DNA from: Zopfochytrium polystomum
Taxonomy: Eukaryota > Chytridiomycota > Chytridiomycetes > Chytridiales > Chytridiaceae
Direction: 5' to 3'
Assembly (NCBI GenBank): GCA_025765615.1
Contig: JAIVFJ010000197.1
Coordinates: 1 to 64,000, forward strand
Length of the DNA stretch: 64,000 nucleotides
This document shows, in pieces, positions 1,068 to 62,842 of the stretch. Made by a program: the position numbers and the translations under genes. The notes beneath the pieces are model-generated. The model did not search any database. It worked only from the letters and a program-made list of their open reading frames with translations, and had not been told where the DNA came from. How positions within the stretch are numbered: the first letter of the stretch is position 1; the number at the start of each line of letters is the position of its first letter.

Positions 1068-1078
1068 AAGTGAATTAT
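1068..1078 (-). promoter_or_regulatory. Predicted self-priming primer-binding site
   Basis: Two bases beyond the LTR end, the minus strand reads ATAATTCACTT. This is the exact complement of AAGTGAATTAT inside the LTR (1161-1151), about 35 nt downstream of the first T of the TATA box, where transcription should start. In Tf1 of fission yeast the first 11 nt of the RNA fold back on the PBS to prime reverse transcription. No tRNA 3'-end complement is seen here. Self-priming is inferred from position and from the 11-nt match. Confidence 0.7.
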
Positions 1079-1080
1079 GA

Positions 1081-1433
1081 TGTCAGGAACAGGGCAGGAC
1101 AGGGCAAGGCAGACAAGGAACTGAGAGGAGTGATGATTGTATTGGAAACAATAATTCACTTGAGGGATGGGACAGGTCCCCCATCCCCCTTTTATACCTT
1201 TTGAGAGTGTTCCTTGTCAAGACTCCAAGAAAGTTCCAGAAAGAGCAATTAGTAATACAATGATACCAATGATACCAATGACAACAAGACAAGTCAGGAA
1301 AGCAAAGAAGGTTCCAGAAGGTTCCACAAGGTTCCATGAAGGAATGTTCTGGAAGGTTCCAGAAGGTTCCAGAAGGTTCCATGAAGGAATGTTCTGGAAG
1401 GTTCCAGAGGTTTCCAGAGGGTGATTCATAACA
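1081..1433 (-). repeat. 5' LTR of the retrotransposon (353 bp)
   Basis: The LTR begins TGTTATGAATC at 1433 and ends CTGACA at 1081 on the minus strand, with TG...CA termini. Its boundaries are fixed by the solo LTR at 33432-33784, which has the same ends and length and is flanked by a 5-bp duplication. U3 carries blocks of alternating GAA/TTC pentamers (1341-1380 is the longest), a TATA box (1196-1189), and a predicted RNA start near 1161. Confidence 0.93.
1189..1425 (-). promoter_or_regulatory. LTR promoter: heat-shock-element arrays plus TATA box
   Basis: Positions 1341-1380 contain eight consecutive pentamers alternating nGAAn and nTTCn without a miss. A four-pentamer block lies upstream of it and a longer imperfect block lies towards the TATA box. 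A further TTC-GAA-TTC triplet lies closer to the TATA. The TATA motif TATAAAAG is at 1196-1189. Arrays of this kind are the binding sites of heat-shock factor HSF1, so heat- or stress-induced transcription is predicted. Confidence 0.75.
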
Positions 1434-2844: not shown

Positions 2845-3196
2845 ATTACCCAGGTGGAGGTCAAATGTCCAAGACTCCAGTAACTATTGGACAGTGGCCA
2901 TTTTCACCTCGAAAGCTCACTCAAACAAATTGTATTGAGCTCAAAACATCTGTTCCGTTCATGCCAGATCCTGGGTTATGCGCCTTGCCTCTGGACATGT
3001 CCAAATAGGTCAGGACCAGCCAGTTGAAGCAAGGAACTACTGCAGCCCCACCTCAAGGGTTTAGACCACATGATTATGTAACAGTCAGCCACTTTCCTGC
3101 TCTGGGAATGGAAGCGCCTGACATCTGCTGGCAGGCATCCTTGCCGCTGGCAGCTTCAGTACCTACAATCCTTGTATTATACACCACTGCAATTAC
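2638..3196. other. Spacer with a 32-base A run
   Basis: Poly-pyrimidine sequence downstream of tRNA-Lys is followed by an uninterrupted A run at about 2811-2842. The A run could be the tail of an old retroposed sequence, but no element body is recognised. Confidence 0.5.
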
Positions 3197-3268
3197 CTCC
3201 CAGGCGGGGAATCGAACCCCGATCGCCACCGTGAGAGGGTGGAATCTTAACCATTAGACGACCTAGGA
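3197..3268 (-). tRNA. tRNA-Glu (CTC)
   Basis: A 72-nt intronless cloverleaf. Acceptor TCCTAGG pairs with CCTGGGA, the anticodon stem is CCACC/GGTGG with loop CTCTCAC and anticodon CTC, and the T arm has a GGTTCGATT core with a GGGG/CCCC-type stem. Confidence 0.92.
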
Positions 3269-3968
3269 ATGGTGCCACTAGCTCTTTCTTCATAACCGGT
3301 TTCGTAAATTGACCAATCCCTTGACTTTGCAACAGTGTGGTTGTGCGGTGGGAAAGTGTGGCAGGAAAAGAAGGTTTCCTCCTACAAACAAATAATTTTG
3401 CTACCATTTATATGTTGGTCATGTGCCATGGCAAATCAGAAAGGTTCAAGGTCCTGTGTCCTATGCACAAGAGCGCTGTTCAGGTTTTGGCCTGATTGGC
3501 CACTGTGGGGATGGATGAAGTACAATACTGAACGTGCAGTGGTGAGGTTGAGGCTGATTTCTGTCTGCCTTGTGTTTGTTGCTATACAAAACTGCTACAA
3601 GGACCAAAACTCAATCTCCCATGCACAAGGTGCCCATTTGCCCCACAGTGTCAGGTTAAACTTCCTGTACACTACCTACGCCAACAGACCCAAACCAAAC
3701 AGGTGCATCAAAAACGGCTTGCTGTGCAAGACACAAGTTTTGCCAGTGACTGGAAGATTGGCTTACAATTGTACATCCTTCCCATCCCACCCCATCCTGA
3801 CACAATTTTGCCCAAAGGTTCCACATCCAACTTCCACCAGTGGTCAAGGAGCTTGTGCCAGGCTTCCACAGCATTTGCAGGCCAAAACAACCATGAGGCT
3901 CTCCAACACCACACGGCAATGGCGCAAGTTGGTGCGCTGATCAAGCTGTAACTTGAAGCAACGATTCA
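3269..3968. other. Non-coding interval
   Basis: Contains short open frames on both strands, none with recognisable domains or conserved composition. Nothing supportable is seen. Confidence 0.5.
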
Positions 3969-4040
3969 GGGGGCTTCCGGGACTTGAACCCGGGACCTCC
4001 TCCACCCTAAGAAGGAATCATACCCCTAGACCAAAGCCGC
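3969..4040 (-). tRNA. tRNA-Pro (AGG)
   Basis: A 72-nt intronless cloverleaf with the fungal tRNA-Pro D-arm pattern (TGGTCTAG), anticodon AGG in loop TTAGGGT, and T-arm core GGTTCAAGT. The acceptor strands GCGGCTT and AAGCCCC pair except for one C-C mismatch at the second position. Confidence 0.88.
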
Positions 4041-4474
4041 TTGTGTTGTGGGCATAATCTGGCCCCTTTGTCTCAAGCACCAATCCTGAAACTGCAGACT
4101 TGACGTTGCTAAATCGGGCAGATTGTCCCAGGGTCAAAGGAACCAGGAAATTGTTAGCTTGTTTGTTTACCCCTGTATGCTTGTACTTGGTTCAACTGGT
4201 CGCTGCACATTCTTTACAAGATCTTGCCACTTTGTAGCTTTTTCAATAAGAAAAAAAAATTCAACCGCTGACAGTCCAGTTTTGACACTCTTGTTGTTGC
4301 CACTGTCACCTCTGTCACACTCCTAACAATATCAGCTGTCACCTTGCATTAGGTCCCATGTCCTCAACTCTCTGCTAACACATTCATTTCAAACACGGCG
4401 GACACTCACCTCCTCACAGCCCAGATTCCTTTTTTTTAAGGCCCCTTGTCCGCCATCAAGGCTGGGTGTTGGAG
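4041..4474. other. Non-coding interval
   Basis: Spacer between tRNA-Pro and tRNA-Arg. No gene is recognised. Confidence 0.5.
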
Positions 4475-4547
4475 CGAGCGTGCCAGGGGTCGAACCTGGA
4501 ATCTCTTGATTCGTAGTCAAGCGCGGTAACCATTTTGCCACACGCCC
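4475..4547 (-). tRNA. tRNA-Arg (ACG)
   Basis: Intronless 73-nt cloverleaf. Acceptor GGGCGTG pairs with CACGCTC, the anticodon stem is CTTGA/TCAAG with anticodon ACG, and the T stem is CCAGG with CCTGG. Confidence 0.92.
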
Positions 4548-5238
4548 TTGGCTTGGTGTGTGCTGCTTGCTTATCTCATGCCCTTTCTTGGAGCCTTTGC
4601 TTTGATTGCAATCTAGGGGTTTGTTAAGCAGCTGCAGATCAGAAACTATATCAGGCAATTCTCGGCAGCACCAACTACCTGGCAACACACACGCGACTGG
4701 GGATCTCGCTCCAGCAGTTTTGGTATCTCAGCGCTTTCAGCAAAGATCACAGAGAGCAGCATATGAGAATTCTCAATGTTGCTGGCTACACTGACACTGC
4801 CCACAGCGTCCACTCAGATGGAAAATCACAGCTCAGCTACAATGTTCTTTTTGGAGGACCAACTATCATCTGGACATCTGTTCAGACCAGCACTGTTATG
4901 TTGTGAGTAACCCTGAGGAAAAATGAATGACATTTGCACTGGTCCCAGTGCTATTGACACTTCTACTGCTTTTGACACTGCATGAGCACTTGGAGGTGGT
5001 CTTGGCCGCTCTGGCCTCGAAGCCTCAAACCATTTTGCAGCAAGCTTCTGGTCCTAGAAGTCCAAATGAAACAGTCAGAGCTAGAAACGCTATCACAGCC
5101 ACCCCAGCCAGCCTGCAGTGTGAAAGGGGGACCCACAGCAGCTCAGGAGAAGCATGATAAGCCTCAAAGTGTTGAGGGCAAGATGAAGGTTTTGTTTCGA
5201 AAGGTTAGGAGGAAACAAATAATTCCCAATTAGAACGA
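4548..5238. other. Non-coding interval
   Basis: Spacer between tRNA-Arg and tRNA-Gly. Small open frames only, none recognised. Confidence 0.5.
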
Positions 5239-5309
5239 GCAACAGTGGTTCAGTGGTAGAATTATCGCCTGCCACGCGGTAGACCCGGGTCCGATTCCCG
5301 GCTGTTGCA
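5239..5309 (+). tRNA. tRNA-Gly (GCC)
   Basis: Canonical 71-nt tRNA-Gly. Acceptor GCAACAG pairs with CTGTTGC, the D arm contains GGTTCAGTGG, the anticodon is GCC, and the T arm is CCGGG with loop TCCGATT. Confidence 0.95.
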
Positions 5310-5353
5310 ATCATTGTGTGATTGATAGCTAAAATGTCAACAAAGCCAATCTC

Positions 5354-5457
5354 TGCCCTCTGCTGGAATCAGACCGAACGACCTTATCCTTGCAAGGGCT
5401 GTGTGACCTCCTACGCAGGGATACGCTCTGTCAGCTGAGCAGAAGGCTCCCTAATTC
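5354..5457 (-). tRNA. Intron-containing tRNA-like gene, isotype unresolved
   Basis: Acceptor GCCTTCT pairs with AGAGGGC (one G-U), the D arm is GCTC/GAGC, and the anticodon stem TATCC pairs with GGATA after removal of about 20-25 nt. The loop reads CTGCGT before and AA after the intron, which gives no clean standard anticodon. The T stem is weakly paired. It may be a decayed gene or one with an unusual intron position. Confidence 0.5.
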
Positions 5458-6579
5458 ACTGTTTGACTAGCCCAACTCAAACTCAAGCAGCTTTGATTGA
5501 TGTGCTGGCCAATCTGTTGCAGTGGGCCAAGGCTAGGGCGTGTGAGCAATGCTTGTCCAGACAAACACACTTGCACACACAGATAAAGACCTATGCATGC
5601 ACGCACACACGTTTGCACACATACACACACACAGTCACACACAGTGTGGCAAAGCTCAACGCAGCGCTGTCCTGCTCAACCACTGCTGGCCAGCCTGAGG
5701 TGGGAAGAAAAACACCCTAACTGTGCCCACACAAAGTGATCCATGCACAACCGTCTCTCAGTGTATGTCTCCTCCACAAGGCAGTCACATCAGAAATTGT
5801 GGCACTAATTGGGGAGGAACTGTGGACTTTGGCAAGCCAAAGTGGCTGGCTGTCCAAAGTGGCTGGGCATCCTGTTGCCAACTTGCCACAGCTGTCCAAT
5901 GGCCATGGCTGTCCACTGGAGATGGCCAGCCAGCAGATTGGGCTTTCCTAAAGCCATGGTGAAGTATGAGCCAGGGTTGTCCAGGTAAGAGAAACTGTGG
6001 CCCTGGTCCAAACAGCTGCCACAGGAATCCACAGCCAATAATGCACAATTCGACACCTGGCAATTATTTTTGCTTCCCATGGCCCAGATTTCTGGACCTT
6101 GCAGTTATGGTATGCCCCAAAACAATGCAGTGGCCATTCGCAACCAGCCAGTACGCCCTTCCCCTTCATCCCCTGTAAGGGCCTCTCTCCCAAGCAGGTG
6201 CAACAGTTTTGCTTCCTGAAGCAATCAAGATGTCTTCTGTTAAAAAAAAGAAGAACAAAAATAATTAAAATCTCAAACCCACTCTTCAAATGCATCACTT
6301 CATCTTGGGATGTGAAAGTTGTGTTGTCCTTCAGTGCGCTGTGACAACATGAAACATGATCAGCAGACTTTCACAACACAGTTGATACAGGAACTCACCA
6401 GCTCAAGGCCAGATAATTTTGTTCAAATTGCCCTTCCAGCACAAAGAATGTAAGGGGCCTCTTGAATACATTTTAAACTGAATATTGCGACTCACCAAAA
6501 CTGTACAATCATACTTCTGAGTGAATATTTGAACAATATGCAAGCAAGGAATTTGGTATGATGACTGTCTTCATGACTG
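5458..6579. other. Non-coding interval with CA-rich repeat
   Basis: Contains an imperfect CA/CACG tract at about 5567-5645 and short frames with no recognisable content. Confidence 0.5.
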
Positions 6580-6965
6580 TCATCCTCCAAAAAAACCCTC
6601 CTCATGCAAGTTATAGTGGCGTGTCTGAAGATCGGTCTGTCCAGCAAAGTTGTAGCTGAGGGCAATAGACTCGCTGTCTGTGTCGAAACCCAAGAAGAGT
6701 CCAAGTGAGGCCTGAGGAGAGAACTTGGTCTTGCATGAGTTTGCAGGTTCTGTGTACTCATTGTTGAGTGTGACAATGAGGCAGCCAAAAATTCCAAGGT
6801 GGCATAGGTTGGGTTTTCGGCCTTGGTAATATTCAAATGGAATTCGACCACTGCGAGTGTGTTGCACACAATTGCACAGGAATGAAGCGTGGCGTATTGC
6901 GTAGTTTGTCAACAGCACAAGCCAGCGCCCAGGTCTGCATTGGTGGTGGCTGGCTCTCCCCATGG
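6580..6965 (-). mobile_element. Ty1/copia integrase-region relic
   Basis: The minus-strand frame contains the block that follows the integrase core in copia elements: IPFEYYQGRKPNLCHLGIFG, then FSPQASLGLFLGF, where families typically show TPYE-W-GRKP, LR-FGC and GIFLGY. No DDE core, RT or LTRs are visible and the frame is only about 125 codons, so this is a dead fragment. Confidence 0.75.
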
Positions 6966-6972
6966 CTATCAT

Positions 6973-7344
6973 GAGAATGATAACTGACAGTCACAATAGG
7001 TTTGGGTCCGTCTTGTGCCTCTTGCTACTAACATGTCAGCTCCACCTAACAGCTGGAAAAGAAAAACAGTGGACAATATTGTGTTTCTTTTGGCTGGTGT
7101 GTGGGTGATTAGGCTGCTGTGACTGCTTGCTCTTCTTGGCCCTAATAAGCATTGGACACTGGATTGCCCTGGTGTAGCAAGGGCACCCAGTGTGGACTGC
7201 TAGGCAGTGGTCAACCTGCCAGCGAGTGTGCAAATCCATCAACTGGAGTTCTGAGCAAAACCCTGCAGCTGCCGTGCTCTGCTGCTCTCAAATCAGCAGA
7301 CATATGCATTTTGTATTTTGCAAACACAAGCAAGAATCCCCAAT
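6973..7344. other. Non-coding interval
   Basis: Spacer between the copia relic and tRNA-His. Nothing is recognised. Confidence 0.5.
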
Positions 7345-7416
7345 GCTACATTCGTATAGTGGCTAGTACGCCTCGTTGTGGCCGAGGAAACGGTGGTTCG
7401 ATTCCACCATGTAGCA
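7345..7416 (+). tRNA. tRNA-His (GTG)
   Basis: A 72-nt intronless cloverleaf. Acceptor GCTACAT pairs with ATGTAGC, the anticodon stem is CCTCG/CGAGG with anticodon GTG, and the T arm is GGTGG with TTCGATT and CCACC. Confidence 0.94.
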
Positions 7417-8544
7417 ATCAGCTTTGTGCGGTACTTTGCTGCAGACTTGTTGTGGTGGTAAACACAAGTTTGTTACCAAGCGCAGGTTTTGATGGGATCA
7501 AGGGAAGCTAGCAGAGCCTTGAGGAATTGGTGACTGCCAGTGGAGGCAGGCGCACCCCCAATGCGCCATGCCACAGCCAGCAATCCGCCCGCCTGCCCAT
7601 TGTCCATGCCATCAGCCAGATAATCCATAACTCAAGGAGCTCAAGACGCGGAGAAGCCATCATCTCTGCCGTCACCGACTCCGCCTGCGCAACGCTGCAG
7701 AATTGTGCCCAGGGCCCTCACCCATTGTATTGAGGTATAACACAAATATAGATATCCTCCTCCCCAGTTGCTACTTGGCCATCTTCAGGTGTCATTGTTC
7801 ACCTGTTCAGTCAGTTGCCTCACTAGCCGGAAGAAACGGCTCTGCTCTTAGACCAACCATCCCATCTGTTCACTCTAACCAAAGTTTTGCTTTTCTGCTA
7901 GCCCATCCCTCTCAGCTACGCAGCAATTGATTGTCAGCAGTGTCTCTCATTGCGCTAGCTGGGATTGTTTGTGCTATCACAGACCTGTCCTGTTGTCCCT
8001 GAGTGTCAGTTCCCGAGTGTCAGTTCTATTCCCACGCATTGGAACCAACCTCCTGGTATTGGAATTGATCAGGAGAACCTGTTCCCCAGGTTCCGAAACC
8101 CTGTACCCAATATGGGTCAAAATATCGTCCCTTAAGAAATGTCCAATGCCGGATGGATTGGATAACCCTGGTCGTGGACTTGAACCTATTGCGACAGTCA
8201 GTTATTGTTCTACGTGATGCATGTCGAGAGCAAGACATCACTGATTTGGGCCCAGGTGCTGGCTTGCACTGTTGGCAATTCTCCAAGTTCATGTTGGGAC
8301 AGAAACCTGTTGTGAACAGTTTTCCTCCTGCCAAGGAGATAGTTATAGGAGAGGGGTTTCCCCAGTGCTGGTCACACTTGCGTTGCGACTATTCAAGGAT
8401 ATGCATTTCATTATTATGTATCAGTTATTCGTTACAGTGTTTTTTCCCCTCGAAGGCAGGCTGACTCATGGTCGCAAAAGAAATATCAAAAACCCAGGAT
8501 GCTTATATTGGTACGCTCCGATAGCCGTTGAGATTACCCGCCAT
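7417..8544. other. Non-coding interval
   Basis: About 1.1 kb without a recognisable gene on either strand, at the border between the tRNA-rich segment and the GC-rich coding segment. Confidence 0.5.
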
Positions 8545-32344: not shown

Positions 32345-33431
32345 GAAGGCAGGGAGTGCTGGGTGCGTAATGTGTGCAACTTTTCTTTTTTTTTTTTTCT
32401 TTAGTCTTTTTTTTTTCCCCTTTTTTTGCAGTGGTGGGTTGGTGTGTGTCGTTTGTCAGTGTACTTTCGGTAGGTCATTCAAATTACTATACTTCTAGTG
32501 ATTCAAGCTCTTCGACTTGTTTGCAAAGGTGGCCCGCTGCGGCTCTTCGAAGCCCTGTGCAGCGGGGGAACGAAAGTCTTCATGCACCTTGTTAAAGCGT
32601 CTTCCACCCACCACCACACCACATGATCGGAGACCTCCTGGGATCGCGATTGCCCAAATCACCACCAAACCTGGCGTGGAGAAGCATCACACAAAGCACA
32701 ACGCTGGCACATGTGGTTAACGTCCATATTAAGGGATGGAGCCTTGGAACGATCAGTGACTTTGTCGAGATCAAGCGAGCAGGTGCCCAAAGTATCATAC
32801 GCCCTTTCAAGAAGACAGGAAGCCTGGCCTACAATTACGATGTTTGGGTCAGGCAACAAAAGGCTCTGCAGAGAATCGTCACTGTTTGTTGCAGGACATC
32901 ATAAACACTGTTAATTCTTCTCAGTTCGGTCTTTGCCAGTTTCATCCAGAACCATGCAGCAGCACTTGCACATGCTTGGAATTCACAGCCACATTTCAAG
33001 GAAGACGCCTTCTTTGTCTCTGAAGCATCGAGCTAGGCACCTGGCATTTCCTCACAAGCATAAAGACTGGACTGTCAAGGATTGGGCCAAAGTAATTTGG
33101 ACAGACGAGGCAGCTTTTGAGGCTGGGAAGGCCCAGTGTGTTATGAATCACCCTCTGGAAACCTCTGGAACCATCTAAAACATTCCTTCATGGAACCTTG
33201 TGGAACCTTCTGCAACCTTCTTTGCTTTCCTGTCTTGTCTTGTTGTCATTGGTATCTTTGGTATCATTGGTATCACTGTATTACTAATTGCTCTTTCTGG
33301 AACTTTGAGTCTTGACAAGGAAGACTCTCAAAAGGTATAAAAGGGGAATGGGGACCTGTCCCATCCCTCAAGTGAATTTTTGTTTCCAATGCAATCATCA
33401 CTCCTCTCAGTTCCTTGTCTGCCTTGCCCTG

Positions 33432-33784
33432 TGTTATGAATCACCCTCTGGAAACCTCTGGAACCTTCTAGAACATTCCTTCATGGAACCTTCTGGAACC
33501 TTCTGGAACCTTCTAGAACATTCCTTCATGGAACCTTGTGGAACCTTCTGGAACCTTCTTTGCTTTCCTGACTTGTCTTGTTGTCATTGGTATCATTGGT
33601 ATCATTGTATTACTAATTGCTCTTTCTGGAACTTTCTTGGAGTCTTGACAAGGAACACTCTCAAAAGGTATAAAAGGGGGATGGGGGACCTGTCCCATCC
33701 CTCAAGTGAATTATTGTTTCCAATACAATCATCACTCCTCTCAGTTCCTTGTCTGCCTTGTCCTGTCCTGCCCTGTTCCTGACA
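33432..33784 (+). repeat. Young solo LTR (353 bp) with 5-bp target-site duplication
   Basis: Same ends and length as the LTR at 1081-1433, with three differences in 353 bp. CCCTG at 33427-33431 and again at 33785-33789 is the duplicated target inside the older LTR. The absence of internal sequence indicates LTR-LTR recombination after insertion. Confidence 0.93.
33460..33565 (+). promoter_or_regulatory. Heat-shock-element array in the young solo LTR
   Basis: Four alternating GAA/TTC pentamers at 33460-33479, eight at 33485-33524, and a further imperfect run to about 33565. The TATA box follows near 33669. Confidence 0.75.
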
Positions 33785-34379
33785 CCCTGTCCTGCCATGT
33801 TCCTGACAGGAAGCAGGGCAAAGTCTGTGTGTGGAGGCAAGCTGGGGAAAGCATTATGAATGAGTGCTTGCAAGGCTCATGCAAGATGGTTGTTCTATAT
33901 TCAGGGTTGTTTCATGTGTTTGAACCCAGGATGCTTTTCGTTCATTGACAGCTGGCTCAACTCAACCAAGTTTATTGACATTCTGGAAGTGGAGTTGGAA
34001 GTTCTTCTAGACCACATGGATAGGAAAACAAACTCTCAAGAGGATGTCACTGCCAACATGATCTAGGAGCAAGAAATGCACCAGCTCACAAAGCAGTGAA
34101 AGTGGGATAGGTTTCAGAAACTTGGATCGAAAGTTCTGGATTGGCCTGCACAAAGCCCAGATCTCAACCCAATCGAGCATCTCTGGGAACACCTGAAGCT
34201 AAAAGTGAAGGTCTAGAATCCCAGCTCTGAAAAAATCAGTCTCAAGTGCATGGAGCAAAATTTCTCATTTGTTCCTTCAACATTTAGTTGAAAGTATGCC
34301 AACGAGAATCAAGGCTGTCATCAAAAACAAAGGGGGTTTCACAAAGTATTGACTCAGCTCCCTCTTATGCACATTTTTC

Positions 34380-39943: not shown

Positions 39944-42714
39944 ATGGCCACCCCCAACCCCTCCTCTTCGCCTGCGACGGCTGCGGCTGCCGCGGCTGCC
40001 GCTACATCTCCCGCAGCCGCCCTCTCCCTCGTCCTGCGGCCCCCACGCATATCAAAGTCCGCCCGCATCTCCCTCGCCTCCCTCGTCCTCTACCTCGCCC
40101 TCACCCGCCTCGAAAAGCTGATCCCCCTGCACCTCCGTGATCCTCCATCGTCATCATCATCGTCATCCGCTACCGACACCGACACCACCACCACCACCAC
40201 CTCGCCGACCCCGCGCCTCGTCCGCGCCGCACACCGTCTCCTCCGCCTCCTCGCGCTCCTCTCGCGCGCCGCCCGCGCCCCGCTGGACGCCGCAGCCACG
40301 GCGACGCGGCGGCTGCTCGACTACTTTGACGAAAAGTCGCAGGCGGGGATGCCGCTGGCACCACTGCGCGACCTGTTTTCGACGGCGCGGGTCGAGTCGC
40401 TGATGCTGGCGTACCTGCCGTCGACGCCGCTGGCGGCGGCGGTGCAGACGGGGGTGTTTGCGGTGGACTTTTTTGTGACGTCGCTGCTGGCGACGGGCAT
40501 CGCGTCGTCGGGCGCCGTGGTCGTCGACGGCGTGCGGGCGCTCGTCGCTGCCGAGTCGGCGCTCGAGGAGGCAGAATCGGTCAGGGTGAGAGTCGACTTT
40601 TTGAGGAGGGGCCACTGGTGCTCGAGGGTCAACCAGCACCACGTCGCGCTGCAGTGGCTCGTGTCGACGCAGTCCAAGGCGCACAAGAACGGCTTGTTTC
40701 GGATGGTGCCGTTCGACACGGAGTTTGAGGACCAGACCGAGGACGCGGATATTGCAAAGGTTTGCATTCTTTTTGTTCGCTTGGGAACCGAAGAACTAAG
40801 AGAACACTCAAAAACAAAACAGGTCGAAGACTTTAACATGCTTCCCGCAGACGAAGAGTCGTACCTGGACATCCAGCACGAAGGCTTCACGTTCCGCGTG
40901 CACTTTGACTACGCCCACCTCAACAACAGCGACAAGAAAAAGGACGACGACGCGAACCCGACCGAGCCGCCGATCCTCGTGCAGCGCATCAAGGCCGGCC
41001 CGACATCCATCCAGTGGATGAAAGACTGGCTGCGCCGCGTGTCGGTCGAGTTTGTAAAGTACCAAAAGTCAAAGAAGCGGCGGTCGCGCTACCAGTACGA
41101 CTTTGATTCCGGGGACTGGCAGTACATTCAGACGCTGCACTCGAGCCGCGGGCTGGCGTCCGTGGCGCTCGACAAGCGGGACGAGGACGCCCTCATGGCC
41201 GATTTGAACACGTTCTTGGCGGACAAGGAGTTTTACAAGAGAATGGGCCTGCCGTGGAAGCGAGGATGTGAGTGCTTATTTTTCTTTTCTCGATTGATCG
41301 CTCTTGACCTTGCTAACCGTTCTACTCCTCCCCTGTTGCATCACAAAAGACATGTTTACAGGACGTCCTGGCACGGGCAAGACCTCGCTCATCAACGCCA
41401 TCAGCGCCCACTACAACCGCGACATTTACTTTATGAACCTCAAAGAGTACGACAGCGACAAGCAGCTCCAGAACGCGTTCAGCCGGGTGCCCAAGAACTG
41501 CATGATTGTCTTCGAGGACGTGGACGCCCAGTCGCGGTGCGTGTGGAACCGGCAGCTGCGCCGAAAGCTCGAGCGGACCGAAAAGATTATCGGGCCGATG
41601 AACATTGGCGAAGACGACTCTGGCGCGGCGGCCGTCGAGGACGATGAAGGTGACGGTGCGGCGGCCGACGGCGGCAGCGTTGGCAGCAAGGGCAAGGAGA
41701 AGGCCGGATCGTCCAAGAAGAAGTCGTCCAAAAAGAAGAAGAGCGGCAGCAAGCAGGAGAAGAAGGCAAAGAAGGCGGCCAAGGCTGCAAAGAAGGCCGA
41801 CGATGCGTCAGCGGCCGTTGCAGCTTCGTCCACTCTTCTCCTGACGGTAAAGGACGAGGACTCGCGGTCGTCCAGCGCCGACTCTGCCATTGGATCGGAA
41901 GGCGGCGACGCGGCGACGACACCGCTGCTTGACTCGCGCCGACCTCTGGCTGACGCTGCCGACACGCTTGCAACTGTCAAGGCCGAAGACAGCGTGGAGG
42001 TCGATGACGCCGACGTGGTCGTTCGGCCTGCATCTGCCAGCGGCGACTCGGCCACGGCGGCAAAGGACGCAAGCAACGACGACGAGGACGAGGACTCTGA
42101 CGATTCTGACGACGACTCTGACGACGAGTCTGACAACGACGACGACGAATCTGAGCCCGCGCTTGACGAGAACGGCGACGAAATCGACGCTGCAACGCGC
42201 AAGCTTCTCGCCGCGACGTTTGGCAGCGCGACGGCGATCCCGCCGCCGCCGCCGCCGAGTGAGAACGGCCCGTCGCTGGCGACGCTGCTCAACTGCCTGG
42301 ACGGGCACTCGCTGGCGGAAGGCGTGATGATTGTGATGACGACGAACCACCCGGAGGTCCTGGACCCGGCGGTCATCCGCCCGGGGCGCATCGACCTGCA
42401 CCTGGACCTCGGGTACTGCACGCGGGTACCAGCTGCAGCGCATGTACAAGAACGTGCGCGAGGACGAGGCTGCGACCCTCGACGGCCTCGACGGCGTCCC
42501 CGAGGGCGTCGTTGCGCCCTGCGAGGCTATGCGCGTCATGATTTTGCACCGGAGGGACCCCGCGCGCGTCATGCCTGCCCTGCGCGAGGCTGCGGACGCC
42601 GCCGTTGGCGCGCTGCAGCAGCAGCAGGCGCAGCAGCAGCAGGCGGCGGCGGCGGCCGCGGAGCGGAGACGCGTGATGATGGCGGCGGCGGGGAGCAGCA
42701 GCAGCAGGGCGTAA
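39944..42714 (+). CDS. BCS1-like AAA ATPase with long acidic insertion; one apparent frameshift
   Basis: Exons 39944-40759, 40823-41267 and 41350-42714. Hydrophobic segments occur near residues 30-45 and 165-190. A BCS1-type domain (EDFNMLP, FTFRVHFDYAH, LVQRIKAGPTS) follows, then YQYDFDSGDWQ. Walker A is TGRPGTGKTSL, Walker B is CMIVFEDVDA, and the sensor and Arg finger are MTTNHPEVLDPAVIRPGRID. Between Walker B and the sensor lies a low-complexity Lys/Asp/Ser/Ala insertion of about 215 residues. At 42424-42426 a GGG run puts the following YQLQRMYKNV segment out of frame; one base fewer would restore it. The tail is Gln/Ala-rich. BCS1 acts in assembly of respiratory complex III, but many fungal relatives have unknown roles. 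Confidence 0.85.
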
Positions 42715-43306
42715 AGTGTTGCGAGTGTTTGGGGTTCACGTTTTGCAAGCATCTTGCAACTTCCTTTGTTCTTGCAACTTCCTTTGTTCTGTCCCTCTTC
42801 TGTACTTGCTTGCCTCGTTTCTTTTTTTTGTTTTTTTGCTCCATCGCCTCTCTTCCCACGCTCTTTTTTTTTTTTTTTTTTCTTCTTCAGTTTTCTGTTG
42901 TTTCATTGCTTCCCAGCGGAAGCGCCAGTGTGTGTTTTTGGTGTGCCTCTGCCTGTTATTTACAAATGCAATACAATCAATCGCTGATCTTTTATATGTA
43001 TGTTTCGAGAGGTGTTGACAAATTGCGCCCTCGAGTGTGGCATATCTCGAAATCTATGGCACCGCGAAGACACGCACCCGCCAAAGCAAGCGTATTTCTC
43101 TCGGTCTCTACATTTATTCGTTTTCGGTTACTCGTTGGAGTGGCGTTCTTTCAAAAAGCAGACAAGAAAAACAAGGAGAAACGAGAGACCACAAAGATTC
43201 CAACGAGTGCGTTCGTCCATAAACGCGAACCATCTTAACGATCTCGTGAAAGCCCTTCCGCCCGCCCCCCCGGCAGGACTCTTCTTGCCCTTCCTTCCCC
43301 TGCAGC
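42715..43306. other. Convergent intergenic region
   Basis: 3' regions of two convergent genes. A T run lies near 42864-42881. No gene is seen. Confidence 0.6.
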
Positions 43307-60094: not shown

Positions 60095-62842
60095 CTATGT
60101 GTCTTCCTGCATCGAAGAGGAATCCTCTAACTCGCTCCCCAACGAAATGTGAAGCCACGCCTCGTGCTCGACAACCTCCGCCGCCCTGAGCTCCAGCGCG
60201 GCGTCAACGCCGCCAAAGCAGTGCCGCAGCCACACAACAGAGTCCAGCGACCCGCGGGACACAGCAAAGTCCATCGTCTCCACCGCCGTCCGCGCGCCAC
60301 TGCGCGCGAGCATGCCCAGCATCGGGCGGAACCCGGCAAGCATCGGGTGCGCGGAAGCCGCTTCCGGGAAACCCTCACAGAGCCACTGCAGCATGGCGAA
60401 GCGAAGGTGGCGCACGCAGGATTCCATCAAAGCCGTGACGGCGCCGCGAGCGGCGAAGAGCGCTGGCCGGCGGGAGTGGAGGGATTTGAGCACCGCGACG
60501 CCGAGGCCGTCGATTGCGGCTGCGCGCTCGGACCGGTTCGCTGGCTCGTCATCCGAAGGCGCGTCCCAGAGCTCGAGCGTGTTGTCGCCAACGACGGCCT
60601 TAAGGGACGCGGTGGCGAGCGCGTCGGGGCTTGCCTCCAACACTGCGTCGAGATGCTTTGCGAGCCCGAGCTGGACGCAGCGCAACGCAAGTTGGTCGCA
60701 TTGCGCTGCGTCGCTGCAAGAGGCGACCACTACAGCCATACTGGCGACAGGCATGCCCTCCAGCGGCAGCAGATGAACGGTGGGATTGCCAGTGCGCGAC
60801 TGCTCCTCAAGGACCTTGGTCCAAAATGCTGGTACCGTTATTTCCTTCCCGCTCGCGTGCCTCTGGCTGCCGTCATCACTTTCGCCGTTGGTCCCGAGCT
60901 TCTTCCGTCGTCTGCCCTCGGCGGTCAGACCAAAATTGACTTCAAGGTACTCCACTACGTCCAGATGCCATTTGTAAAAGGCGCGCGTCGCTGCGTCACT
61001 ACTGCATCCTTCAGATCGATTTTCGTGGAGAAACTTGACCACCTCCAGATACCCTCGCTCTGCTGCCATGTCCATGGCCTTTTTGCTGCACCCCTCCTTC
61101 CGGTTCGCGTGGAGGTATTGTACCACATTCAGATGTCCGTTGCTGGCTGCTCCATTCATGGCCTCCTTAGTGCAGCCTTCGACACGACGATTGTGCAAGA
61201 ACTCGACCACGTCTAGGTGTCCCGCTGCTGCAGCTTTGTCCATTGCATCCGCTGTGAAGTTCGCAGTGTAATAGTTGTGCAGGAATTTCACAACTGCCAA
61301 ATGACCGCCCGCCGCTGCCGCATTCACAGCAGCTTTTGTGCAGCCCTCCTGGCGGTTGCTGTGCAAAAATTCGAGGACGTCCAAAAGTCCCGCGCCTGCG
61401 GCCAAGTCCATTGCCCAAGCCTCAGTCCAGCCTTCAAAGGATCGTCGATGCAAGACCTGGATGATCTCCAAGCATGCTCGTGGTACCACATGGAACCACT
61501 TGAGGATCGGCTCGTACACAGTGGCGGCCTCAAAGTCTGCCACCTCGGGACGATGTTCCAGCAGGAACTTGACCACCTCTGCTATTGCCATCAAACCCTC
61601 CCGATCCTCCGTAGACGGATACAGTGCGCCAAAGATCCCGTCCGCCGTGCAGCCCTCGGCGCGATGGGAGTGCAGGAACTTCACCACGTCAATGTGCCCA
61701 TTCTCCACTGCCCCATTCATCGCCGCGACCGTGGCCGGCGCTCCGCGCTCGTGCAAATACTCAACGACAGCAAGGTGTCCCTTCGTCGCAGCCTCGTCCA
61801 ACGCCTCGGCCACGCACTCGCTGCCGAACCTCTCCATCACCCACTCGAGCACGCGCACTCGCCCCGACTCGGCGGCCTCAGCGGCAACCTTGAGCCCAAT
61901 TTGGGTATCAAAAGGCTTGAACACGTCCGCCCACCTCAGCAAGTCAACGCGGCCGTCGCGGGCCGCGTTGTAGATAAAACCGTCGTCGATGCTGAGCGTG
62001 GGCTGCGCGGCAAAGAGCGCGACGACGCGGTGCACCGGGAGGCCGGACTGCGCAACGTCGCTCGACTCGATAGAGCACTCGCCGCGTGGTCCAGGCCGAA
62101 CGAGGTCCAGCCAGTCGCGGGCCACGGCAACAGGGTAAAGCTGGCGCACGAACCGGTCGTCTATCTTCGAATGGACAACTTCGAACATGGATCTGCTGCG
62201 GATGAGGAGGTAGTCGGGGTAGTTGAGCGACACGCCGTCGTTTAGTACCGCTGCAAAGTTCAACGCGCGGGCGGCCGTTGCTGCCGCGGCCGCGGCCTGT
62301 GTGGGTGCTGTTTTGGGATCGATGAGCAAGTTGTGGAGGTCGTGTTCGAAGATGTCGCGGCACACGGATCTGGTTCGTTCGCGATCAGCGCCGGAGCCGC
62401 CGGGGCGGAGCGGTTGGATGTCGATGCCGGACAGGAGTTGGGTAACGGGGCTGGCGAGGGCGAGCATGGTGTTTTTAAGCTCGGGTGAGAGTTTGTCCCA
62501 GTGGCTGCGGCGCACGAAGGAGGTCGTCGGAGCTTCGGCCAAGGGCCTGTGTGGGGCTGGAGCGGGGACTGGCACGGCCGTCGTGGCGGTGGGCGGTGAA
62601 TCAAGGAGCCTCAAGCTCGTGAGAAGTGTTGTCACTGCGGCGACAGCAGTTTGGAGTGCGCCAAAGTGCTCGCGGACGGGTTCGTTCGAAGAGGACGCTT
62701 CACCGCCTTTGAGGGTGGCGACTGCGGTAACAATGGCGGTGGTGGCTGCAGCTGCAGAGACGGCGGCTGCCAGCGCCTTTGCGGAGACCTGGATGGCGCG
62801 GATCTGGGCCTCGATGGCCGCCACGCCTTGCGCCGTCAGCAT
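60095..62842 (-). CDS. Ankyrin-repeat protein with F-box-like segment (915 aa)
   Basis: Single exon. The N-terminus (residues about 1-110) is Ala-rich and helical. SHWDKLSPELKNTMLALAS at about 113 resembles an F-box start. Residues about 280-660 hold about ten ankyrin-type repeats of about 33 residues in the variant GHLDVVEFLHNRRVEGCTKE, including DKAAAAGHLDVVEFLH and AAERGYLEVVKFLHENRSEG. The C-terminal 250 residues contain SLHSRRPALFAARGAVTAL and WLRHCFGGVDAALELRAAE. If the F-box is real, it would be a substrate adaptor for SCF ubiquitin ligase; this is inference. Confidence 0.85.
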   Translation of the reverse strand: MLTAQGVAAIEAQIRAIQVSAKALAAAVSAAAATTAIVTAVATLKGGEASSSNEPVREHFGALQTAVAAVTTLLTSLRLLDSPPTATTAVPVPAPAPHRPLAEAPTTSFVRRSHWDKLSPELKNTMLALASPVTQLLSGIDIQPLRPGGSGADRERTRSVCRDIFEHDLHNLLIDPKTAPTQAAAAAATAARALNFAAVLNDGVSLNYPDYLLIRSRSMFEVVHSKIDDRFVRQLYPVAVARDWLDLVRPGPRGECSIESSDVAQSGLPVHRVVALFAAQPTLSIDDGFIYNAARDGRVDLLRWADVFKPFDTQIGLKVAAEAAESGRVRVLEWVMERFGSECVAEALDEAATKGHLAVVEYLHERGAPATVAAMNGAVENGHIDVVKFLHSHRAEGCTADGIFGALYPSTEDREGLMAIAEVVKFLLEHRPEVADFEAATVYEPILKWFHVVPRACLEIIQVLHRRSFEGWTEAWAMDLAAGAGLLDVLEFLHSNRQEGCTKAAVNAAAAGGHLAVVKFLHNYYTANFTADAMDKAAAAGHLDVVEFLHNRRVEGCTKEAMNGAASNGHLNVVQYLHANRKEGCSKKAMDMAAERGYLEVVKFLHENRSEGCSSDAATRAFYKWHLDVVEYLEVNFGLTAEGRRRKKLGTNGESDDGSQRHASGKEITVPAFWTKVLEEQSRTGNPTVHLLPLEGMPVASMAVVVASCSDAAQCDQLALRCVQLGLAKHLDAVLEASPDALATASLKAVVGDNTLELWDAPSDDEPANRSERAAAIDGLGVAVLKSLHSRRPALFAARGAVTALMESCVRHLRFAMLQWLCEGFPEAASAHPMLAGFRPMLGMLARSGARTAVETMDFAVSRGSLDSVVWLRHCFGGVDAALELRAAEVVEHEAWLHISLGSELEDSSSMQEDT

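Follow-up and report, generated by a model that had tools for sequence, protein, structure and literature searches.

Arrays of canonical heat shock elements in the LTRs of a putative Tf1-like chromovirus of the chytrid Zopfochytrium polystomum

The LTRs in the window and the element family

The assembly of Zopfochytrium polystomum (Chytridiomycota, Chytridiales) consists of 80.16 Mb in 761 contigs, and the window, that is, the whole stretch of 64,000 bases analyzed here, begins at base 1 of contig C197 (119,062 bases). The first 1,433 bases of the window carry, on the minus strand, an LTR (1433–1081) followed by a gag frame, and the remainder of the element lies beyond the contig start. This LTR (1081–1433, minus strand; TGTTATG...CTGACA) is 353 bp long and is the 5′ LTR of the truncated element. 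The gag reading frame, taken from stop to stop, occupies positions 117–1082 of the minus strand and matches Retrotrans_gag (PF03732, 1.5e-12); its ATG was read by eye at 1040. The complement of the LTR was found at 33432–33784 (plus strand) with 99% identity. This second copy is a solo LTR that was inserted into an older LTR of the family, now diverged (33139–33431, plus strand, its end resuming after 33784), and the target duplication CCCTG is seen at 33427–33431 and 33785–33789. The window also contains a 4.2-kb cluster of five tRNA genes (Glu, Pro, Arg, Gly, and His; 3196–7417), located about 1.8 kb from the LTR of the element, and host gene frames for an AAA ATPase (41298–43238) and an ankyrin-repeat protein (60095–62842).

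The class of the element was examined by a domain search on one element of contig C14, which was searched in separate pieces on either side of its middle (the expected RT/RNase H region). These pieces gave gag (PF03732), aspartyl protease (PF13650/PF08284), and the integrase zinc-binding, integrase core, Tf2-1-like SH3, and chromodomain matches (PF17921, PF00665, PF24626, and PF00385, respectively), the last three of which adjoin the 3′ LTR. These domains assign the element to the Tf1-like Ty3/Gypsy chromoviruses. In the Copia order, the integrase precedes the reverse transcriptase; membership of the Ty1/Copia family, with an ONSEN-like order, was considered and rejected, because the integrase with its Tf2-1-like SH3 domain and chromodomain lies directly before the 3′ LTR. 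At L047:1676–3177, the gag and pol frames, taken from stop to stop, overlap by about 130 bases in different frames, which suggests a programmed frameshift.

Forty-six LTR rows were extracted from the genome, many of them at loci that were found via the heat shock element (HSE) itself. One mis-joined row (33139–33450, from the old LTR) was kept among the 46 and treated apart; the other 45 all have the ends TGTTA...TGACA. Perfect 5-bp target duplications were found in all eight elements checked, and the two LTRs showed no difference in 9 of 9 pairs (those of eight elements and one pair lying 2.8 kb apart on C1), which indicates that the family moved recently. The 50-base promoter core of the LTR, from the TATA box to the self-primer described below, occurs in 943 + 931 = 1,874 genome copies with at most three mismatches, while its reversed control occurs in none. 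Related elements were not found in viral contigs. Among the 120 listed of the 8,000 candidates scored, the closest protein relative is 77% identical and lies on a 1,473-bp contig.

The TATA box (TATAAAA; 1190–1196, minus strand) is present in 46 of the 46 extracted rows. The self-primer, AAGTGAATTAT (1151–1161, minus strand), which is also the predicted 5′ end of the transcript, begins 35 nt downstream of the TATA-box start and is present in 45. The primer binding site, ATAATTCACTT (1068–1078, minus strand), is located 2 nt past the LTR end and is the exact 11-nt reverse complement of the self-primer, as expected from a self-priming element. In the RNA fold, the self-primer is paired with the primer binding site; the support from the whole fold is modest (z of −1.57, with 14 of 200 shuffles equally good). 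The match between the two sequences places the predicted RNA start without reference to the HSEs, and the HSE distances given below are arithmetic from this predicted, self-priming-based 5′ end.

The HSE array and its variation

The whole 64,000-base window was scanned for perfect alternating nGAAn/nTTCn runs of at least three pentamers. Eight such runs were found, of which four are in the LTR at 1081–1433 and four in the solo LTR at 33432–33784 (runs of 4, 8, 4, and 3 at 33460–33637), while the older LTR has none. In the former LTR, all runs are in the U3 on the minus strand and sum to 19 perfect pentamers: a most distal block of four (1386–1405; about −244 to −225 from the predicted start), a block of eight (1341–1380; about −219 to −180), a second block of four (1306–1325; about −164 to −145), and a separate site of three near the TATA box (1228–1242; about −81 to −67). 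The three larger blocks are borne by a 45-bp tandem repeat of 2.6 copies (1307–1422, minus strand), in which periods of 10 bp and 45 bp are seen, and the 3-pentamer site lies outside this repeat. The LTR accordingly carries at least four contiguous alternating GAA/TTC pentamers upstream of its TATA box, the feature by which an ONSEN-like, HSF-responsive LTR is recognized. The first-pass annotation had described eight consecutive mismatch-free GAA/TTC pentamers at 1341–1380, and the perfect-run scan reproduced this array exactly; in its list of blocks, the 3-pentamer site at 1228–1242 had been overlooked. Its placement of the blocks upstream of a TATA box is correct on the minus strand only, which is the coding strand of the element.

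Enrichment of the pentamer phase over shuffled LTR sequence had been set beforehand as a test, and it was borne out: the real run is 8, while dinucleotide shuffling of the LTR (20,000 trials) gave runs of 4 on 4 occasions and nothing longer. Since the HSE block is a tandem repeat, shuffling alone overstates the case against chance. When the 45-bp unit was shuffled and then tiled, so that the repeat was preserved, no run exceeded 4, a length seen in 6 of 20,000 trials, whereas permuting the letters of the 10-bp unit and tiling it gave runs of at least 7 in 110 of 20,000 trials. The eight-pentamer run is thus not due to chance, and about 0.55% of simple 10-bp repeats of such make-up would resemble HSEs fortuitously.

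The motif is abundant in the genome. The six-pentamer pattern has 2,188 sites as against 0 for the pattern read backwards, and the perfect four-pentamer pattern has 7,339 as against 10 in the reversed-pattern control; these sites overlap within arrays, so that their counts exceed the array counts, one window-type LTR holding, by arithmetic, five four-pentamer and two six-pentamer sites and one 308-bp LTR two and none, respectively. Among the six-pentamer clusters on C1–C4 (the C5 rows being excluded from this count), 17 of 21 have an exact promoter core 158–226 bp downstream in the correct orientation. The remaining four (C2:2850, C2:582250, C3:472624, and C3:677739) have no exact core nearby, and some of them may have a mismatched one, as only exact cores were counted. 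Two of these, C2:582250 and C3:472624, show unusual linker letters, and they may be host heat-shock promoters, diverged LTRs, or parts of another element family. For the four-pentamer pattern, the listing of C1 reaches base 971,043 of 973,537, and in all 19 clusters there, with 68 sites in total, the blocks are spaced by 35 bp as in the LTR; extrapolation from C1 suggests that nearly all four-pentamer sites of the genome reside in LTRs.

The array differs among LTRs mostly by whole modules. The run pattern is 4-8-4-3 in 38 of the 46 rows, 4-4-3 in four, 4-4 in one, 4-8-8-4-3 in one, and 4-8-8-8-4-3 in one, and the mis-joined row has no run. Thus, 44 of the 46 rows carry 11, 19, 27, or 35 pentamers, each step corresponding to a 45-bp module of eight pentamers. 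The LTR lengths are 308, 353, 398, and 443 bp, with 34 rows, including both window LTRs, at 353 bp; small indels occur in the 354- and 363-bp rows and in one 309-bp row, and the other length steps are whole 45-bp modules. A fairer sample of 30 loci was obtained with the window segment 1081–1257 as the query, which excludes the array and includes the 3-pentamer site. An intact LTR was recovered at 28 of these loci (the exceptions being C413:44699 and C54:339555), namely 23 of 353 bp, 4 of 308 bp, and 1 of 443 bp, and all 28 have array runs with at least 11 perfect pentamers. With 100% identity over the query, the 30 loci are the best matches and therefore represent young copies rather than a random draw. 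Identical LTR pairs on C104 and C118 indicate that 11-pentamer LTRs were also recently mobile; hence, 19 pentamers are not required.

Three comparisons bear on the constraint of the GAA/TTC cores. Among the 34 LTRs of 353 bp, variable columns number 0 of 57 in the cores, 3 of 38 in the linkers, and 10 of 258 elsewhere; by arithmetic, the chance that none of 13 variable columns falls in a core is about 0.1, which makes this a weak test. Among ten repeat units of one LTR, changes are found at 9 of 40 linker and 2 of 60 core positions (p = 0.006), a value to be read with the fact that the units share ancestry and were pre-selected for at most one core mismatch. Finally, the old LTR at 33139–33431 differs from a 308-bp copy by three core and six other changes and retains no run of three, and the comparison of young with old copies gave p = 0.055. 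Overall, these sequence comparisons are suggestive, not conclusive, of core constraint.

HSF genes and heat shock promoters of the host

The search for HSF-type domains gave 14 matches, distributed over 11 places of the genome, and several of these are diverged or divided between two frames. Near-complete domains were found at three scanned loci (L054, L055, and L056). The frame of L056, the sole one compared with solved structures, matched Heat shock factor protein 2 (5d8k) at 2.4e-27; the FKHNN..SFVRQLNMYGF stretch is alike by eye, and the best relatives of L056 are HSFs. An HSF of this genome has Zopfochytrium polystomum DFJ73DRAFT_616553 as its best protein match, and at an HSF locus of C19, two exon parts were read by eye as that protein. 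Equal or near-equal HSF and HSP70 match scores recur across contigs (C17/C403, C174/C709, and C7/C459/C655), which suggests that retained haplotypes or recent duplications are present in the assembly.

The use of the motif by the host was examined by scanning the stretches upstream of genes for contiguous HSEs. The small-HSP family is expanded (33 HSP20 matches in the genome), and 12 of its loci were fetched (L067–L078). Upstream of 10 of these 12 loci, an HSE of four pentamers with a score of 15 of 16 is present (GGAATTGTCCAGAAGCTTCC is one example), as compared with 0 of 39 background stretches. The ten positive loci share just four distinct HSE sequences, so that they are not independent, and each sequence has one mismatch; no host HSE seen is thus as long or as perfect as the LTR arrays. 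A contiguous four-pentamer HSE was found upstream of neither HSP70 (0 of 5 stretches of 731 bases each, the genome having 58 matches; best score 12 of 16) nor the HSP90 genes (0 of 2), and an HSE scoring at least 15 was found upstream of 0 of the 10 fetched HSF-domain loci. Host use of the motif was thus seen only at the small HSPs. The first-pass interpretation is supported in part: the LTR does belong to a retrotransposon, its U3 does carry canonical, non-chance HSEs upstream of a TATA box, and the host has both HSF genes and the motif at its small-HSP genes; heat or stress activation stands as a prediction.

A stress-inducible promoter and its place among known elements

An unusually long string of HSF sites located just upstream of the transcription start implies that this very abundant element is probably switched on by stress. 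We consider it likely that the LTR serves a recently active Tf1-like chromovirus as a promoter that HSF drives and stress induces; HSF binding and induction are what we infer from the array and its setting. In the proposed mechanism, the trimeric HSF of the host would bind cooperatively to the array, which occupies the part of the U3 between about 65 and 245 bp upstream of the predicted transcription start. Heat or another proteotoxic stress would then lead to HSF-driven, TATA-dependent transcription of a full-length RNA, and this RNA would prime its own reverse transcription and allow re-insertion. New LTRs, including solo LTRs, would spread the stress-responsive promoter to other places, and gain or loss of array, mostly by 45-bp modules of eight pentamers, may set the strength of the promoter.

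The main rival is that the HSF-bound array is chiefly a constitutive activator, occupied in unstressed cells and supporting expression during ordinary growth or in one life stage. In yeast, strong tandem sites show basal HSF occupancy, which accords with such a role. The 11 to 35 pentamers of 44 of the 46 rows also go beyond what induction should need, as four adjacent pentamers already define the strongest class in plants. Against this stands the tendency, in the plant families surveyed, of stronger arrays to accompany larger heat induction, and we regard constitutive activation as unlikely. Another possibility is that a different protein with an HSF-type domain uses the array in response to an oxidative, osmotic, or developmental signal. 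Skn7, Sfl1, and Mga1 are other proteins with an HSF-type DNA-binding domain, and the occurrence of such domains at 11 places, in several cases in diverged or split form, would leave room for proteins of this kind. The near-complete domains at L054, L055, and L056, with HSFs as the best relatives of the last, speak against it, as does the result that no Skn7-type receiver domain was found in the ten frames scanned, which cover part-genes. Inverted pentamers phased by 5 bp are, moreover, the signature of the HSF trimer, and this explanation is judged very unlikely. Most improbable of all is that the HSE block is a neutral LTR minisatellite whose 10-bp unit is HSE-like by accident: the block is indeed a tandem repeat, permuted 10-bp units occasionally yield comparable runs, and the length alleles vary freely, with one recent-type row having only 8 pentamers, but the 3-pentamer HSE stands apart from the repeat, unit changes fall mostly at linkers, the array runs were kept in 28 of 28 intact LTRs of the 1081–1257 sample, the tiled 45-bp control never exceeded 4, and the location upstream of the TATA box suits a promoter.

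An extension of the stress-inducible reading is that the family dominates the HSE landscape of its host: the LTRs would hold nearly all perfect multi-pentamer HSEs, HSF would sit mostly on them under stress, the resulting HSF sink would set how strongly the host itself responds to heat shock, and solo LTRs would act as portable heat-shock enhancers with a digital strength given by eight-pentamer modules. We hold this to be a tentative and rather doubtful idea; it extrapolates to the whole genome from the 19 clusters listed for C1, all of which have the LTR spacing.

The principle itself is known from plants. According to a survey of Brassicaceae (PMC5059998), ONSEN/COPIA78 of Arabidopsis, COPIA37, TERESTRA, and ROMANIAT5 are likewise LTR retrotransposons with adjacent GAA/TTC pentamers in the LTR, and four adjacent pentamers accompany up to thousand-fold heat induction in ONSEN and TERESTRA. 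The Copia elements treated there have at most four adjacent pentamers, with up to five in the cluster of one family, and ONSEN, a Ty1/Copia element with eight full-length copies in A. thaliana, has one four-pentamer and one gapped site (PMC5059998). The chytrid element differs in being, by its domains, a Ty3/Gypsy chromovirus with 1,874 LTR cores and 11–35 pentamers in 44 of 46 rows. Heat induction has been demonstrated for ONSEN and is a prediction for the chytrid element.

Among fungal elements, the likeness to Tf1/Tf2 of fission yeasts lies in the Tf2-1-like SH3 domain of the integrase, and we know of no HSE array in the LTRs of Tf1, Tf2, or Tj1. The RNA 5′ end of Tf1 and Tj1 is complementary to the primer binding site (PMC4600332), and the same arrangement is seen in the chytrid element. 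Putative HSEs in fungal LTRs have likewise been described for TCN3 and TCN12 of Cryptococcus, together with temperature-linked mobility; TCN3 has two and TCN12 one, as compared with the modular chytrid array, and mobility at 37 degrees was measured in Cryptococcus (PMC12810828). MAGGY of Magnaporthe oryzae was reported in 2001 to be activated by heat shock, and no description of an HSE array was seen for it. In a 2026 paper, heat activation of transposable elements driven by host machinery is called undescribed in fungi.

HSEs or heat shock promoters also occur on mobile elements other than Gypsy LTR elements. Helitrons of Caenorhabditis bear HSEs (PMC6927752), and titles cited by PMC2685390 attribute a heat shock promoter to DIRS-1 of Dictyostelium. 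The former are DNA transposons, and DIRS-1 is a tyrosine-recombinase element. A search of the open-licence literature found, among the best-ranked matches, no report of HSE-bearing retrotransposons in chytrids, in agreement with the statement in the first-pass annotation that no report was known for this kind of fungus. Thus, while the principle is known, the host phylum, the element class, the copy number, and the modular array look new.

If the stress-inducible reading is correct, an early-diverging phylum of fungi would join the groups in which retrotransposons hijack HSF. A single genome here offers LTRs of 11, 19, 27, and 35 pentamers, a natural series on which the dose response to HSE number could be tested, and the 1,874 LTR promoter cores permit asking whether a transposon family is able to titrate a master regulator of stress.
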